The notes under the pieces: generated by a model
What the model was told of the DNA's origin: nothing
Database searches by the model: none
The model's input: the letters and a program-made list of their open reading frames with translations, nothing else
Source of the DNA: a virus
Length of the DNA: 35,902 bases
Virus record (IMG/VR): IMGVR_UViG_3300023442_000010
Span: 1-35,902 of that record
Strand: one strand, 5' to 3'
Program-made: the position numbers and the translations under genes
Part shown: piece by piece, positions 6,997 through 13,099 of the stretch
Layout of the letters: every line of letters begins with the position of its first letter
Numbering within the stretch: the stretch's first letter is position 1

Positions 6997-7307
6997 CCGC
7001 GAACGACCGCATGAAACTGCTGCGCGAAAAGATCACCGAGCGCGGCCAGGCACAGGTTGCCCGCGAGCTGGGATACTCGGCCTCCGCCATCAATCAGGTG
7101 CTGCACGACAAGTACCAGGGGAGCCTTGACAACCTGCTCGAACGGGTCGCCGAGGTGTACGGCAGTGAGTCTGTCGATTGCCCGATGCAGGGCGAGATCC
7201 CGCTCGGCAAATGTGCCGCCGAACGCCGCCGCCCTTTTGCCGCGACCAACGCCCAGCGGGTACGCCAGTGGCGTGCCTGCCGCAACTGCCCGCTTAACAA
7301 GCGATAG
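6993..7307 (+). CDS. Helix-turn-helix protein with C-terminal zinc-type cysteines
   Basis: 104 residues. The N-terminal half is an XRE-like HTH (QAQVARELGYSASAINQVLH). The C-terminal half carries C63, C74, C96 and C99 in a CxxC-containing arrangement that could hold a metal. The start at 6993 overlaps the previous stop and has a near-perfect GGAGGTGA site. Small HTH-plus-cysteine proteins of this shape recur in early regions of Mu-like phages; a regulatory role is likely. Confidence 0.75.
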   Translation: MTANDRMKLLREKITERGQAQVARELGYSASAINQVLHDKYQGSLDNLLERVAEVYGSESVDCPMQGEIPLGKCAAERRRPFAATNAQRVRQWRACRNCPLNKR

Positions 7308-9121: not shown

Positions 9122-9290
9122 GGTGCGTGCCAACTGCGGCAACAGCCGCTGCAAGACCAAAGTGTTCGTGGTCGAGCGTCCGGACGGCTGTTGCGAATAC
9201 GCCAGCGGGAAACCTATCAAGATCATGAACGAATGGTGCCCTGAGTGCGGTATGCAGGCTACGGTGAGCATTGTCAAAAAGGTGAAATGA
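9114..9290 (+). CDS. Very small zinc-ribbon-like protein
   Basis: 58 residues, two cysteine clusters (C8/C13 and C42/C45, CPEC) framing a beta-hairpin-like centre, the pattern of a zinc ribbon. The ATG has an excellent AGAGGAGGAGA site. Its TGA stop at 9288-9290 directly touches the first nucleotides of the hammerhead ribozyme at 9291, so translation runs right up to the ribozyme. Confidence 0.65.
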   Translation: MFEVRANCGNSRCKTKVFVVERPDGCCEYASGKPIKIMNEWCPECGMQATVSIVKKVK

Positions 9291-9373
9291 GCGAAACCGG
9301 TCAAGGGGACAGGCACCTTACGGAGCCAGTCCCCATCCGGTCGGTCGGGGGTGGCGCCCCGGTCCTGATGAGC
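9291..9373 (+). ncRNA. Hammerhead ribozyme 1 (stem II open, type II permutation)
   Basis: All invariant hammerhead core bases are present in permuted order: GAAA 9293-9296, cleavage triplet GTC 9340-9342, CTGATGA 9365-9371. Stem III pairs 9296-9300 with 9337-9341 and continues through 9305-9310/9329-9334 and 9312-9314/9325-9327. Stem I pairs 9343-9350 with 9357-9364 around a GTGGCG loop. Stem II is only two pairs (9372-9292, 9373-9291). The loop I bases GTGGC (9351-9355) can pair with GCCAC (9375-9379), a possible tertiary pseudoknot. Cleavage would fall after C9342. A second copy at 11885 has the same core with compensating changes in stem I, which strongly supports a real structure. Confidence 0.85.
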
Positions 9374-9415
9374 AGCCACAACGACAACCGGGCGCGGCAT
9401 GCAGCGCCCACCTTG

Positions 9416-9458
9416 GCCGTCGGGGTTTTCACCCTCCTGGCCCCGGCGGCATTTTTTT
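9416..9458 (+). terminator. Intrinsic terminator downstream of ribozyme 1
   Basis: GCCGTCGGGG (9416-9425) pairs over 10 bp (one T-G) with CCCCGGCGGC (9441-9450), followed by seven Ts (9452-9458). This is a strong Rho-independent terminator within the early operon, about 45 bp after the ribozyme and before the next ATG at 9470. A smaller GC-rich inverted repeat (GGGCGC/GCGCCC) lies around 9390-9409. Confidence 0.75.
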
Positions 9459-9893: not shown

Positions 9894-10156
9894 TGGATCA
9901 GATGACGCAATGGCTCGACGCCAACACCATGACCTGTGAGCGATTCGAGGCACGGATCACCGCGGCCGCCTGCCGGTCCTACGCCAAGGCCAACCCGGCA
10001 CGCTGCGAGGATTGCGATCGCGCCGGTGGACGCCGCAGGAAGCGTTGCACCGTAGATGGCTGCCGGCGCGAATACTACGCCAAGGGGATGTGCAAATCGC
10101 ATTACCAGCAAGCCTCCCTGGCGCGGAAAAAAGAACGGGAAAGGGCTCGGCAATGA
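9893..10156 (+). CDS. Small zinc-binding protein with repeated C-x4-C...C-x2-H module
   Basis: 87 residues. The C-terminal half has C52-x4-C57-x9-C67-x2-H70 (CTVDGC ... GMCKSHY), the same module as in the gene at 7428, and is followed by a very basic tail. The N-terminal half has C15, C27, C38 and C41, a second possible metal site. Start overlaps the preceding stop. Probably nucleic-acid binding. Confidence 0.7.
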   Translation: MDQMTQWLDANTMTCERFEARITAAACRSYAKANPARCEDCDRAGGRRRKRCTVDGCRREYYAKGMCKSHYQQASLARKKERERARQ

Positions 10157-10362
10157 GCGATCGCTGCAATGCAAAAACCGAAGTCTGGGCGCGGGTGTGC
10201 GGGTTTTTTCGGCCGGTGAACCAGTGGAATCTTGGCAAAAAACAGGAATATCGCGACCGCAAGCACTACCAGGTCGACAGCGCCAGACTGGGCAACGTAA
10301 AGCGGTGCAAGGCCGAGTGCGGCGAGGATAGGCACGGCAAAGCGAAGCAAGGGAAACTCTAA
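10153..10362 (+). CDS. NrdD-like C-terminal domain protein (anaerobic ribonucleotide reductase fragment family)
   Basis: 69 residues. The stretch VWARVCGFFRPVNQWNLGKK followed by EYRDRK matches the C-terminal segment of class III (anaerobic) ribonucleoside-triphosphate reductase NrdD. The glycyl-radical and active-site regions are absent, so it cannot be a complete enzyme. It has its own ATG overlapping the previous gene and no sign of a longer decayed frame upstream, so it looks like a stand-alone small phage protein rather than a pseudogene. It may modulate host nucleotide reduction; that is speculative. Confidence 0.7.
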   Translation: MSDRCNAKTEVWARVCGFFRPVNQWNLGKKQEYRDRKHYQVDSARLGNVKRCKAECGEDRHGKAKQGKL

Positions 10363-10371
10363 GGGGCGCAC

Positions 10372-10794
10372 ATGAAACTGGCCAGCAAAAAGCAGATCCA
10401 GCTGATCCATATCGCCAAGGCAAAGCTGGGAATGGACGACGAGGCATACCGCGCCCTGCTGCACGATCGCTGCCGGGTCGCCAGCAGCAAAGACCTGACC
10501 TATGCTCAGGCCTCACGCCTGATCGACGAGCTGAAGCGTAAGGGCGGCATCGACCCGCGCAAAGGACGGCCGCGCAACATGGGCGGCCGCAACAGCCGCG
10601 ACCAGCAGTTGAGGAAGATCGAGGCGCTGCTGACCGTGGGCGGGAGGCCCTGGAGCTATGTCGATGCCCTGGCGCAGCGCATCTGCAAGGTCGACAAGGT
10701 GGCCTGGGTGCCGAACCATGAGCTTTACAAGCTGATCGCGGCCTTGAGGCGCCAGGCAAAAAGAGAAAACTGGGATCTGTCGGGGGAAAAATAA
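10372..10794 (+). CDS. gemA: GemA-like (Mu gp16, DUF1018) phage regulatory protein
   Basis: 140 residues. The N-terminus (LASKKQIQLIHIAKAKLGM, then DDEAYRALL) and the middle LTYAQASRLIDELKRKG are characteristic of the Mu gp16/GemA family; Mu GemA alters host gene expression and DNA supercoiling. The C-terminal third (VAWVPNHELYKLIAALRRQ) completes the domain. It ends just before the promoter of the C4-like RNA. Family assignment is secure; biochemical action is not known in detail. Confidence 0.85.
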   Translation: MKLASKKQIQLIHIAKAKLGMDDEAYRALLHDRCRVASSKDLTYAQASRLIDELKRKGGIDPRKGRPRNMGGRNSRDQQLRKIEALLTVGGRPWSYVDALAQRICKVDKVAWVPNHELYKLIAALRRQAKRENWDLSGEK

Positions 10795-10802
10795 TGCAGG
10801 GC

Positions 10803-10832
10803 TTGACACGGAAAACCGCAATCGGCTACCGT
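10803..10832 (+). promoter_or_regulatory. Promoter of the C4-like RNA
   Basis: A perfect TTGACA (10803-10808) with an 18-bp spacer and TACCGT (10827-10832) forms a plausible sigma-70 promoter immediately after gemA. The expected start lies near 10840, giving a transcript that would end at the terminator at 10917-10921. Confidence 0.55.
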
Positions 10833-10839
10833 GAACCCG

Positions 10840-10922
10840 CTGTCGGCAAAATCCGGCAGCCGGGTTTGGCAGCCCGGAATACCAGAGGCGGACACACCGC
10901 CTGCAATTCTGGCGGTCTTTTT
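10840..10922 (+). ncRNA. C4-antisense-like RNA
   Basis: The sequence folds as CCGGG/CCCGG (10860-10864 with 10873-10877) around a TTTGGCAG loop, then CCAGA/TCTGG enclosing GGCGG/CCGCC, ending in an alternative ACCGCC/GGCGGT hairpin (10896-10901 with 10911-10916) plus CTTTTT. Two short sequences are complementary to downstream mRNA: loop TTGGCAG (10866-10872) with CTGCCAA (11005-11011), and GGACACA (10890-10896) with TGTGTCC (10922-10928). This two-site antisense design and the primary sequence strongly resemble the C4 RNAs of phages P1, P7 and P4, which control a downstream reading frame. Assignment is from memory of the family, so moderate confidence. Confidence 0.6.
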
Positions 10923-11081
10923 GTGTCCACCACAAGCATGGTGCACCCGGTTGGGCGCGTCGTGCGGGAGGCCTTCGGGCCTGCCGGCTTCCTCTGGTGC
11001 CGGTCTGCCAACCCGTGCGGCGCGCCCTCTTTGCGTTTGGCAGCGCAAGGGGCGCAGAACCCCAACCAGAGGAGGCTCACC

Positions 11082-11297
11082 ATGCAGCACCCACCGCACG
11101 ACCATCCCATCGACATTCTGACCGACTGCGCCGGCAAGGCGGCGTTTCTCGCCGACGCCCTGGCCGGCTGCGTCCACCAGACCAGCCACGACCTGAGCCC
11201 GCGCGGGCTGCAGGGCCTTGGGCTCTACCTGACCGAACTGGAGCGCGACCTGGCCTGCGCCGCAACCCTGATTGAGCGAAAGGAGATGGAATCATGA
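11082..11297 (+). CDS. Small protein of unknown function downstream of the C4-like RNA
   Basis: 71 residues from ATG 11082, which has a perfect AGAGGAGG site. Mostly helical, with C17, C31 and C60. The same frame is open upstream to an ATG at 10938, which would add 48 residues (VHPVGRVVREAFGPAGFLWC ...). That peptide resembles the short frames found next to C4 RNAs in other phages, so a longer or second product under antisense control is possible. The stop overlaps the next gene (ATGATGA). Confidence 0.6.
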   Translation: MQHPPHDHPIDILTDCAGKAAFLADALAGCVHQTSHDLSPRGLQGLGLYLTELERDLACAATLIERKEMES

Positions 11298-11884
11298 TGA
11301 GCGAAATGACCGTACTGCCGCCGAATGCCCTAGTTGAAAAGAATGGCAAGATTGTGACTACCAGCCTGAAGGTTTCAGAGACTTTTGGAAAGCGGCATGA
11401 CAGGGTGTTGCGGGCCATCAAAGACCTTGATTGTACGGATGATTTTCGCCTCCCCAATTTTGGGGAGGGCCTCTACGCCGACAAAAACGGCCAGATGCGC
11501 CCCATGTACGAGATGACCAGAGACGGCTTCGTTTTTCTGGTTATGGGGTTTACTGGACCGAAGGCGGCTCGCTGCAAAGAAGCCTATATCACCGCCTTCA
11601 ACCAGATGGAGCAGGCCCTGCGTCAGCGGCTGTTCGTCGCGCCGGAGCCTAAAACCGTAGAAATCGAAGAGGCCGACTACTACAAGATGAAAGCCGAGCT
11701 GGCCGAACTGAAGCTGGAAAACGTTCTGCTGCGCGGCAAAAAGCGGATGCCGTTCAGTGACGAAGAGGAAGCCTATATGCTGAGGGCGCGGCAGGCTGGC
11801 GCCAGTTACGGCGAGATCGCCAAAGATCTCGACAGGGCCACCGGATCAGTCAGCAACTGGTTTCATCGGCGGCACAAACAATAA
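11294..11884 (+). CDS. rha: Rha-family phage regulatory protein
   Basis: 196 residues. The N-terminal ~100 residues (KVSETFGKRHDRVLRAI, then FRLPNFGEGLYADKNGQMRP and YEMTRDGFVFLVMGFTG) are the pRha domain found in many temperate phages, where Rha interferes with growth in hosts lacking IHF. The usual C-terminal ANT or KilA-C partner domain is replaced by a coiled segment and a helix-turn-helix-like end (YGEIAKDLDRATGSVSNWF). Start overlaps the previous stop. The stop codon at 11882-11884 abuts hammerhead ribozyme 2. Confidence 0.88.
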   Translation: MMSEMTVLPPNALVEKNGKIVTTSLKVSETFGKRHDRVLRAIKDLDCTDDFRLPNFGEGLYADKNGQMRPMYEMTRDGFVFLVMGFTGPKAARCKEAYITAFNQMEQALRQRLFVAPEPKTVEIEEADYYKMKAELAELKLENVLLRGKKRMPFSDEEEAYMLRARQAGASYGEIAKDLDRATGSVSNWFHRRHKQ

Positions 11885-11939
11885 GCGAAACAGGGCTTCG
11901 GCCCTGTCGTCCGGGGGTGGCGCCCCGGGCCTGATGAGC
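11885..11939 (+). ncRNA. Hammerhead ribozyme 2 (stem II open, type II permutation)
   Basis: Same permuted core as the copy at 9291: GAAA 11887-11890, GTC 11906-11908, CTGATGA 11931-11937. Stem III pairs 11890-11896 with 11901-11907 and is capped by a TTCG tetraloop. Stem I pairs 11909-11916 with 11923-11930 around the identical GTGGCG loop. Stem II is two pairs (11938-11886, 11939-11885). Predicted cleavage is after C11908. Relative to copy 1, stem I differs at several positions yet stays fully paired, and stem III is shorter with unrelated sequence but also fully paired. Cleavage would separate the rha message from the gene at 11955. Confidence 0.88.
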
Positions 11940-11954
11940 AGCCGAAGGGAAACC

Positions 11955-12746
11955 ATGCAACTCACCTGCCCCATGTGTCACGGTAAATTCAGCCTGGAGT
12001 CCGCCCTGGAAAGCGATGCCGCAGGCGAGCTGCTGGTGCTGCTCTCCCAGGCGGGACCGGTGGCGCGGCCGCTGGTCGCCTATCTCGGCCTGTTCCGCAG
12101 TAAAAGCCGGGCGCTCTCCTTTGAGCGCGCCCGGCGTCTAGCGTGCGAGGTTATGGATATGGGCATCGAGCCGAGCGTACTGATTGTTGCTCTCGGCAAA
12201 ACGGTAGAGTCATTGCGCCAGAAGCGCGACGCCGGGTATGTCCGCCCACTGAAAGACCACCGCTATCTGGCCAGCGTCATCGAGTCGACAAAAGCCGAAA
12301 CGAGTGCCACCGGTCTGTCTGCGTCACCGGCTTCTATGGACGCCGCGCCCCGCGGCAAACGCGCCCAGGCGATCGCCGCCCTGCAGCAGTGGGCCGGAGA
12401 CTGCTGGGTGCGCCGCGAGATCGCCCACGGGCTGCAGGCCCTGGTCGCTCTCTCCCGCCCCGGCACCCCGGCCGCCGACACCATCACCCTGACCGCCGAC
12501 GTCTGGGAGGTCGCCATCCGCGGCAACCACCGTATGGAACTGGAGGAGATCGACGGACCCCGGCTTCACAAGGCATTTAAGGGGCTCATAAAACAGCCCC
12601 TGAAAGACTGGCCCGACCCGGCCGCCCTGGCGCCGCACATGCCGACCCGGCCCGACCTCGACCGGCTGCCGACCCCGCCCCGCAGCGACGAAGAAACCGA
12701 GCGCGGCCTGAGTGCCGCGCGCAAGATCAGGGAGGTGTTGCAATGA
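11955..12746 (+). CDS. Mu-like phage early protein with N-terminal CxxC
   Basis: 263 residues beginning MQLTCPMCHGKF, a zinc-ribbon half-site (C5/C8), followed by a helical domain (GPVARPLVAYLGLFRSKSRA) and a long linker ending in a basic helix. Similar proteins occur upstream of mor in several Mu-like phages; I know no tested function. The ATG at 11955 follows GAAGGGA; an earlier in-frame ATG at 11934 is part of the hammerhead core and has no ribosome site. The stop overlaps the mor start (ATGA). Confidence 0.75.
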   Translation: MQLTCPMCHGKFSLESALESDAAGELLVLLSQAGPVARPLVAYLGLFRSKSRALSFERARRLACEVMDMGIEPSVLIVALGKTVESLRQKRDAGYVRPLKDHRYLASVIESTKAETSATGLSASPASMDAAPRGKRAQAIAALQQWAGDCWVRREIAHGLQALVALSRPGTPAADTITLTADVWEVAIRGNHRMELEEIDGPRLHKAFKGLIKQPLKDWPDPAALAPHMPTRPDLDRLPTPPRSDEETERGLSAARKIREVLQ

Positions 12747-13099
12747 GCGAAACCACCGGAACCCCGGAAAAACGCGGAACGCAGATGCTCTACAGCGTCG
12801 CCGAGTTGGTCACCGAGGCCCTGCGCGAGAACCAGGTCGAGCCGGATCAGGCCCGACAGGTCGGACTGGCGGCCGCCGACCTGGTGCGGCAGCACTATGG
12901 CGGCGAGCAGATCTACGTCCCCAAGGGACTGGCGCTGATCATCACCGAGCGAGACCGGGAGATCTACCGCAAGTTCCACGGCGGCAATCATTTTGCCCTG
13001 GCAAAGGAGTACGGCCTCACCGTGCGGCAGATCTACAGCATTGTGGCGCGGGTGAAGGAGGAAGAGTTTCTGGCGCGGCAGGGGGATTTGTTCGGGTGA
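12743..13099 (+). CDS. mor: Mor-family middle-operon transcription activator
   Basis: 118 residues. The C-terminal half (YVPKGLALIITERDREIY, FHGGNHFALAKEYGLTVRQI) is the Mor/C fold: a dimerisation strand, the GGNH-type turn and a helix-turn-helix. In Mu, Mor made from the early transcript activates the middle promoter, which lacks a good -35 box. Here it ends the rightward early operon and the lysis and head genes begin about 1.3 kb further on. No separate C-type late activator is seen in the window. Confidence 0.9.
   Translation: MSETTGTPEKRGTQMLYSVAELVTEALRENQVEPDQARQVGLAAADLVRQHYGGEQIYVPKGLALIITERDREIYRKFHGGNHFALAKEYGLTVRQIYSIVARVKEEEFLARQGDLFG

Follow-up and report, generated by a model that had tools for sequence, protein, structure and literature searches.

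A type II hammerhead ribozyme behind rha as a candidate 3' boundary of a C4-antirepressor cassette in Mu-like phages

The type II hammerhead ribozymes, the pseudoknot that they form and their clustering around prophage genes have been known since 2011 (Perreault et al., PMC3088659); the clustered phage ribozymes cleave in vitro, and one of them also in E. coli. Like the ribozyme analysed here, these prophage hammerheads (RF02276) have a permuted order, an open 2-bp stem II and the same core, their stem I loop can pair with the 3' strand, and several copies flank genes of phage operons. The same paper discusses a variant from the haloviruses HF1 and HF2, in which the ribozyme likewise precedes an early gene, by 13 nt, and a mapped 5' end lies no more than 3 nt from the cut site. 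Hammerheads also stand at the unit borders of retrozymes and other ribozyme-carrying mobile RNAs (PMC4918200). The C4 motif is included in Weinberg 2010 (PMC2864571), and the C4/ant modules of the P1/P7 type (RF01695, RF03163) resemble our locus in that an a1b1 target, a C4 RNA and an antirepressor gene lie in one transcript. Here we describe a hammerhead that ends such a module: its motif, pairing and placement, the recurrence of its cassette in other phages, and two related phages, one with an empty and one with a filled site.

The hammerhead between rha and D270

The window, i.e., the whole stretch of DNA analysed, is a 35,902-base IMG/VR virus record. Genes for Gam, GemA and Mor follow one another in this order on one strand, as in a Mu-like early operon, and the relevant features are these:

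9291..9373, + strand: HHR1, the first hammerhead, type II, predicted cut 9342/9343 (Rfam 52.5 bits, E value 3.3e-8; cmscan match 9289-9381)
9416..9458, + strand: terminator-like hairpin with a CACCCTCCTG loop and a T-run, behind HHR1
10372..10794, + strand: gemA, left of the cassette (Pfam GemA, 3e-23)
10826..10880, + strand: c4-a1b1, the C4 RNA target (Rfam RF03163, 44.3 bits, just under the gathering score of 46.7)
10948..11032, + strand: C4 antisense RNA, 5' part of the cassette (Rfam RF01695, 55.5 bits, E value 3e-8)
11082..11297, + strand: small ORF before rha
11294..11884, + strand: rha, antirepressor-type regulator (Pfam Phage_pRha, 1.3e-29)
11885..11939, + strand: HHR2, type II hammerhead ribozyme, with the 3' pseudoknot strand extending to 11944 (Rfam RF02276)
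11891..11906, + strand: stem III hairpin of HHR2, CAGGGC-TTCG-GCCCTG, perfect
11909..11930, + strand: stem I hairpin of HHR2 with its loop
11931..11944, + strand: HHR2 core CTGATGA, stem II strand GC, and AGCCG
11955..12746, + strand: D270 (function not assigned; phrog_2161/8159), first gene of the predicted downstream cut product
12743..13099, + strand: mor-like late-transcription activator (Pfam Mor, 5.1e-30)

HHR2 was matched by cmscan to Hammerhead_II at 11883-11947 with 68.9 bits (E value 1.7e-12; gathering 37). A search for the same geometry returned exactly two elements in the window and none in 200 shuffles of 2-base blocks, which, together with the Rfam score, rules out a chance match. 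In the full-model alignment stems I and III are closed and stem II is open, the latter consisting of 2 bp (G11885-C11939 and C11886-G11938). All required core residues (GAAA, NUH, CUGANGA) are present, as GAAA at 11887-11890, U11907 C11908, and CTGATGA at 11931-11937, and the pair A11890-U11907 closes stem III. Stem I joins 11909-11916 to 11923-11930 by 8 bp around the loop GTGGCG (11917-11922). By inspection, the UGGC of this loop (11918-11921) can pair with GCCG (11941-11944) of the 3' strand AGCCG (11940-11944) through four pairs including one U.G, although covariation between the two strands is uninformative because both are nearly invariant. Judged by score and intact core, HHR2 is a genuine type II hammerhead, as originally predicted for the gap between rha and the next gene, and self-cutting is predicted after C11908, between 11908 and 11909.

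The placement given by the original prediction also holds: the rha stop codon (TAA, 11882-11884) directly abuts the first base of HHR2, and the next start codon with a Shine-Dalgarno (SD) sequence is ATG 11955, that of D270. The C4 RNA and its a1b1 target lie upstream of rha on the same strand, forming a C4-antirepressor module, and an isrK-like match (RF01394, 52.7 bits, 10839-10922) overlaps c4-a1b1. By analogy with P1, C4 would repress the antirepressor. The small ORF at 11082-11297 has a 36% match that precedes rha in locus L135. A DNA search of annotated phage records returned only short matches to the rha region (Vibrio, Escherichia and Pseudomonas phages), and no D270 relatives were found in genome contigs. 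Farther upstream, at 10153-10362, a short protein matches anaerobic ribonucleotide reductase at its C-terminal end (Pfam NRDD, 3.5e-9), corresponding to the glycyl-radical region; the match is also present in L125, L127, L129 and L279.

Near-abutment to a stop codon is usual in phage hammerheads, 62% of which start within -6 to +3 nt of the preceding stop, as compared with 5.6% of random positions. Next-gene starts, where detectable, lay mostly 8-16 nt behind the hammerhead, in a count that demanded an SD match and had no control. The genes in front are typical of the Mu-like early region (HU-like, DUF3164, DUF2786/DUF7168, Gam, Mor) and those behind include GemA and DUF2786; among the genes preceding pattern-found phage hammerheads (n=99), Rha occurred only in the window. 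Such placement would suit a regulated switch, in which a ribosome at the rha stop covers stem II and the GAAA and delays folding, so that cutting reports the C4-controlled translation of rha. Ribozyme and stop codon are directly adjacent in the window, L278 and L388, and in L135 they overlap; in L379 and L359, however, about 180-205 nt separate the last antirepressor stop from the ribozyme behind it, and abutment may simply reflect compact phage genomes. We regard a switch of this kind as quite improbable. Several wider rules were also considered and rejected: most rha loci have no hammerhead behind them, C4 loci without a ribozyme exist, and neither L003 nor most D270 loci carry a hammerhead directly in front of D270.

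Phage hammerheads occur in other arrangements as well. In a 57-kb virus record (IMGVR_UViG_3300017605_000570; L027), a stretch of about 4 kb contains eight type II hammerheads, between nearly every gene pair and all with different stems. Pairs enclosing one gene or a short stretch were seen in L102, L115, L029, L038, L045, L065 and L076; the interval is occupied by an ORF of about 225 codons in L102, L038, L065 and L076, and in L102, L115, L029, L038 and L045 each of the two hammerheads has its own conserved stem I sequence. In L126, a relative of the window phage, a hammerhead at 2304-2366 lies about 30 nt ahead of a transposase match.

HHR1 represents a module of its own, composed of a hammerhead, a terminator whose CCUCC(U) loop resembles an anti-Shine-Dalgarno sequence, and then an SD and a small gene (window 9291-9458; L125, L126/L020, L142, L144-L148, L150, L152-L157, L275, L367, L384 and L388). 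A CCUCC loop was present in 14/14 terminators detected within 80 nt behind a hammerhead, most of which had been fetched by a pattern demanding CCTCCT, versus 8/233 other terminators of the same loci, at least three of these eight also following a hammerhead that the filter had missed. In an unselected set the proportion was 5/5. The terminator hairpin of HHR1 matched no Rfam family. Cutting by HHR1 followed by termination would yield a 5'-OH RNA of about 116 nt (window 9343-9458), which might pair with SD sequences.

Covariation, kinship of the copies and the cassette border

The original prediction drew its evidence for selection from the two copies of the window, taken to be independent and to differ at several stem I positions. 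The difference amounts to only two pairs, one altered on both sides (G.U to U.G) and one on a single side (U.G to C-G). Nor are the copies independent, since their 3' halves share 36/42 letters and the 3' half of HHR2 is identical at 41/42 positions to the HHR1-type ribozyme of L278, as against 30/42 for the HHR2 of L278. With too few changes between copies that are not independent, this comparison was dropped as the main evidence; the argument from covariation is weak within the genome and strong across other phages. When viral hits were selected by their core letters only, pairing not being required, the stem I positions of the 138 distinct hits were paired in 92-98% of cases versus 47-88% with partners re-dealt, and their stem III positions in 82-96% versus 47-64%; 129 of the 138 have a stem I region of exactly 22 nt. 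The type II stems covary among the cassette-bearing relatives as well: over five lineages including the window, stem I pairs 1, 2, 4 and 8 change two-sidedly with pairing kept, while one stem I position is unpaired in L278 and one in L388. Going by these other phages, the hammerhead structure is under selection.

The border of the cassette can be located by comparing L126, which lacks it, with L278, which has it. The two align at 77-78% up to the last gemA codons, and the alignment resumes at 89% from GCAGCCAACAACAG onwards. This point coincides with the HHR2 3' strand in L278 and with the middle of a small reading frame in L126 (...KAKAANNRPLTKDK*), so the cassette probably replaced the front of that frame. 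The right border of the cassette is thus probably the ribozyme, within its 3' strand. The two ribozyme sites seem to have swapped their 3' halves. The suggestion of a duplicated mobile RNA element therefore stands in part: halves have apparently been swapped, and the ribozyme seems to travel at the end of a DNA cassette, but there is no sign of RNA-based mobility, no retroelement parts were noticed in the cassette, and its borders are explained by DNA exchange.

These data also bear on the proposal that the hammerhead is mainly a DNA-level linker at gene borders, maintained by recombination between copies, with cutting of minor importance. The L278/L126 border, at a GCAGCC within the ribozyme 3' strand that is common to the empty site, would fit a linker, as would the HHR1-type 3' half of HHR2 and the greater likeness of stem I between paired copies of one phage than between phages (7.5 vs 8.5 differences, p 0.03, an effect largely masked by one 8-copy phage). 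However, six shared letters at a single junction are weak evidence. Base pairing would be superfluous in a linker, whereas the covariation of stems I and III is strong and stem III, re-invented in almost every copy, is still paired. On balance we consider it unlikely that HHR2 is mainly a linker.

The C4-antirepressor-hammerhead cassette in related phages

Related loci were sought by protein homology to Rha and D270, not by the letters of the ribozyme. The order C4, antirepressor, hammerhead was found in four further lineages, L278 (also retrieved as L150 and L368), L359/L360, L379 and L388. In L278, whose Rha, GemA and D270 are about 49% identical to those of the window, the arrangement is HHR1 with its terminator, GemA, C4, Rha, HHR2 touching the stop codon, and D270. 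Both members of the ribozyme pair, which the original prediction proposed to look for in related Mu-like phages, hence recur at their positions in a diverged relative.

Conservation of both positions would be expected if the two ribozymes released the 2566-nt segment 9343-11908 and the host RNA ligase RtcB closed it into a circular or otherwise stable RNA carrying gemA, C4 and rha. RtcB joins 5'-OH and 2',3'-cyclic phosphate ends, and the end types left by the two cuts would suit it. Against such a product stand the terminator behind HHR1 and the many phages with only one of the two hammerheads; moreover, the 2011 study looked for splicing or circularisation of the products of clustered phage hammerheads and found neither (PMC3088659). 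We find a circular RNA very unlikely.

The antirepressor between C4 and the ribozyme is exchanged among the lineages, being Rha in the window and L278, P22_AR_N in L359, ORF6N in L379, and Rha plus ORF6N in L388. The cassette itself occupies two or more places in the operon; in L379 and L388 it follows D270 instead of preceding it. Among the D270 phages, every hammerhead located past GemA as well as the early genes upstream follows such a cassette, and the remaining hammerheads are HHR1-like or lie further upstream. In L379 (5930-6115) repeated palindromic hairpins around TGACAAATTGTCA occur near the antirepressor, and in L388 TGACAAATTGTCA hairpins occur near 7006 (stem III) and within the ORF6N gene; one of the hairpins seems to have become the ribozyme stem III of L388.

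Related rha or antirepressor cassettes without a ribozyme were found in L279, L133, L366 and L124. L366 and L279 have C4 and an antirepressor, L124 has a C4-rha locus, and L133, like L135, combines an sRNA-Xcc1 match with Rha (the L135 match being just under the cut-off). In L135 stems III and I are present behind rha and CTGATGAG has been deleted from the core. Disrupted cores in related phages, which would have spoken against the original prediction, are thus represented by this one case, and there rha ends the operon, a different place. Because four cassettes lack the ribozyme and that of L135 is core-deleted, the cassette can do without it. In phages that bear a ribozyme elsewhere, four further C4 loci have no hammerhead within 1.5 kb. 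L393 (G051) was not scorable because its C4 lies at a contig end.

The core-deleted copy and the several cassettes without a ribozyme are what one would expect if HHR2 were a relic with no present role. Every required core residue is nevertheless kept in the window and the four other ribozyme-bearing cassette lineages, over proteins about 49% identical, and we think a relic very improbable. An intact ribozyme was present in 4/4 cassettes with early genes behind them (window, L278, L359, L379) and in 1/5 cassettes at an operon end (intact in L388, broken in L135, missing in L366, L279 and L133), a relation noticed post hoc over nine loci and to which L388 is an exception.

Proposed role and comparison with known systems

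We propose that HHR2 would act in cis on the early transcript of the phage, cutting it directly after the stop codon of the antirepressor gene. Of the two products, the one upstream, containing the C4-controlled rha, would carry at its 3' end the stem III hairpin and a 2',3'-cyclic phosphate, and the downstream one, with D270 and mor, would begin with the 5'-OH stem I hairpin. HHR2 would then form the 3' boundary of a cassette that is exchangeable and inserts into Mu-like early operons; the inserted, C4-silenced antirepressor would become a separate message, whose repression or decay would spare the early genes behind. A separate antirepressor message is the most likely outcome given the position of the ribozyme, the conservation of its core and the intact copies where early genes follow. 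We infer cutting in cells, downstream insulation and a benefit to the phage. Counting against insulation, a post-transcriptional cut cannot undo Rho-dependent termination, if C4 acts in that way. Overall, we lean somewhat towards a working HHR2 that cuts in cis, bounds the cassette and insulates the downstream genes; the possible alternatives follow, in decreasing order of likelihood, as the DNA-level linker, the ribosome-gated switch, the circular RNA and the relic.

More tentatively, C4, the exchangeable antirepressor and the hammerhead may constitute one transferable lysogeny-control cassette of Mu-like phages, by which a C4-silenced antirepressor could be plugged into the middle of the early operon with mor left unsilenced. 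If so, an antisense RNA would guard the 5' side of the cassette and a self-cutting RNA would seal its 3' side, linking two RNA devices in one lysogeny-control module and providing an example of a self-cleaving ribozyme as the message boundary of an acquired gene module. The role of the many hammerheads of phage operons, a question since 2011, would become testable here, as the same cassette is available with an intact, a core-deleted or no ribozyme, a related phage pair exists with and without the cassette, and the neighbouring regulator mor has a measurable output.

Compared with the systems introduced above, the ribozyme itself is ordinary. The accessible text of the 2011 paper does not link the prophage hammerheads to C4/antirepressor cassettes, stop codons or terminators, and the variant of HF1/HF2 belongs, as described there, to an archaeal virus and has a variant core and no antirepressor cassette (PMC3088659). 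Unlike retrozymes (PMC4918200), the cassette of the window has no noticed retroelement parts, and its movement looks like DNA cassette exchange. The open literature on hammerheads with C4, Mu-like phages or phage operons yielded nothing beyond the 2011 paper. In contrast to the known C4/ant modules, a hammerhead ends the module in the window and in four other lineages, and this composite arrangement of C4, antirepressor and hammerhead is, as far as open papers go, new.
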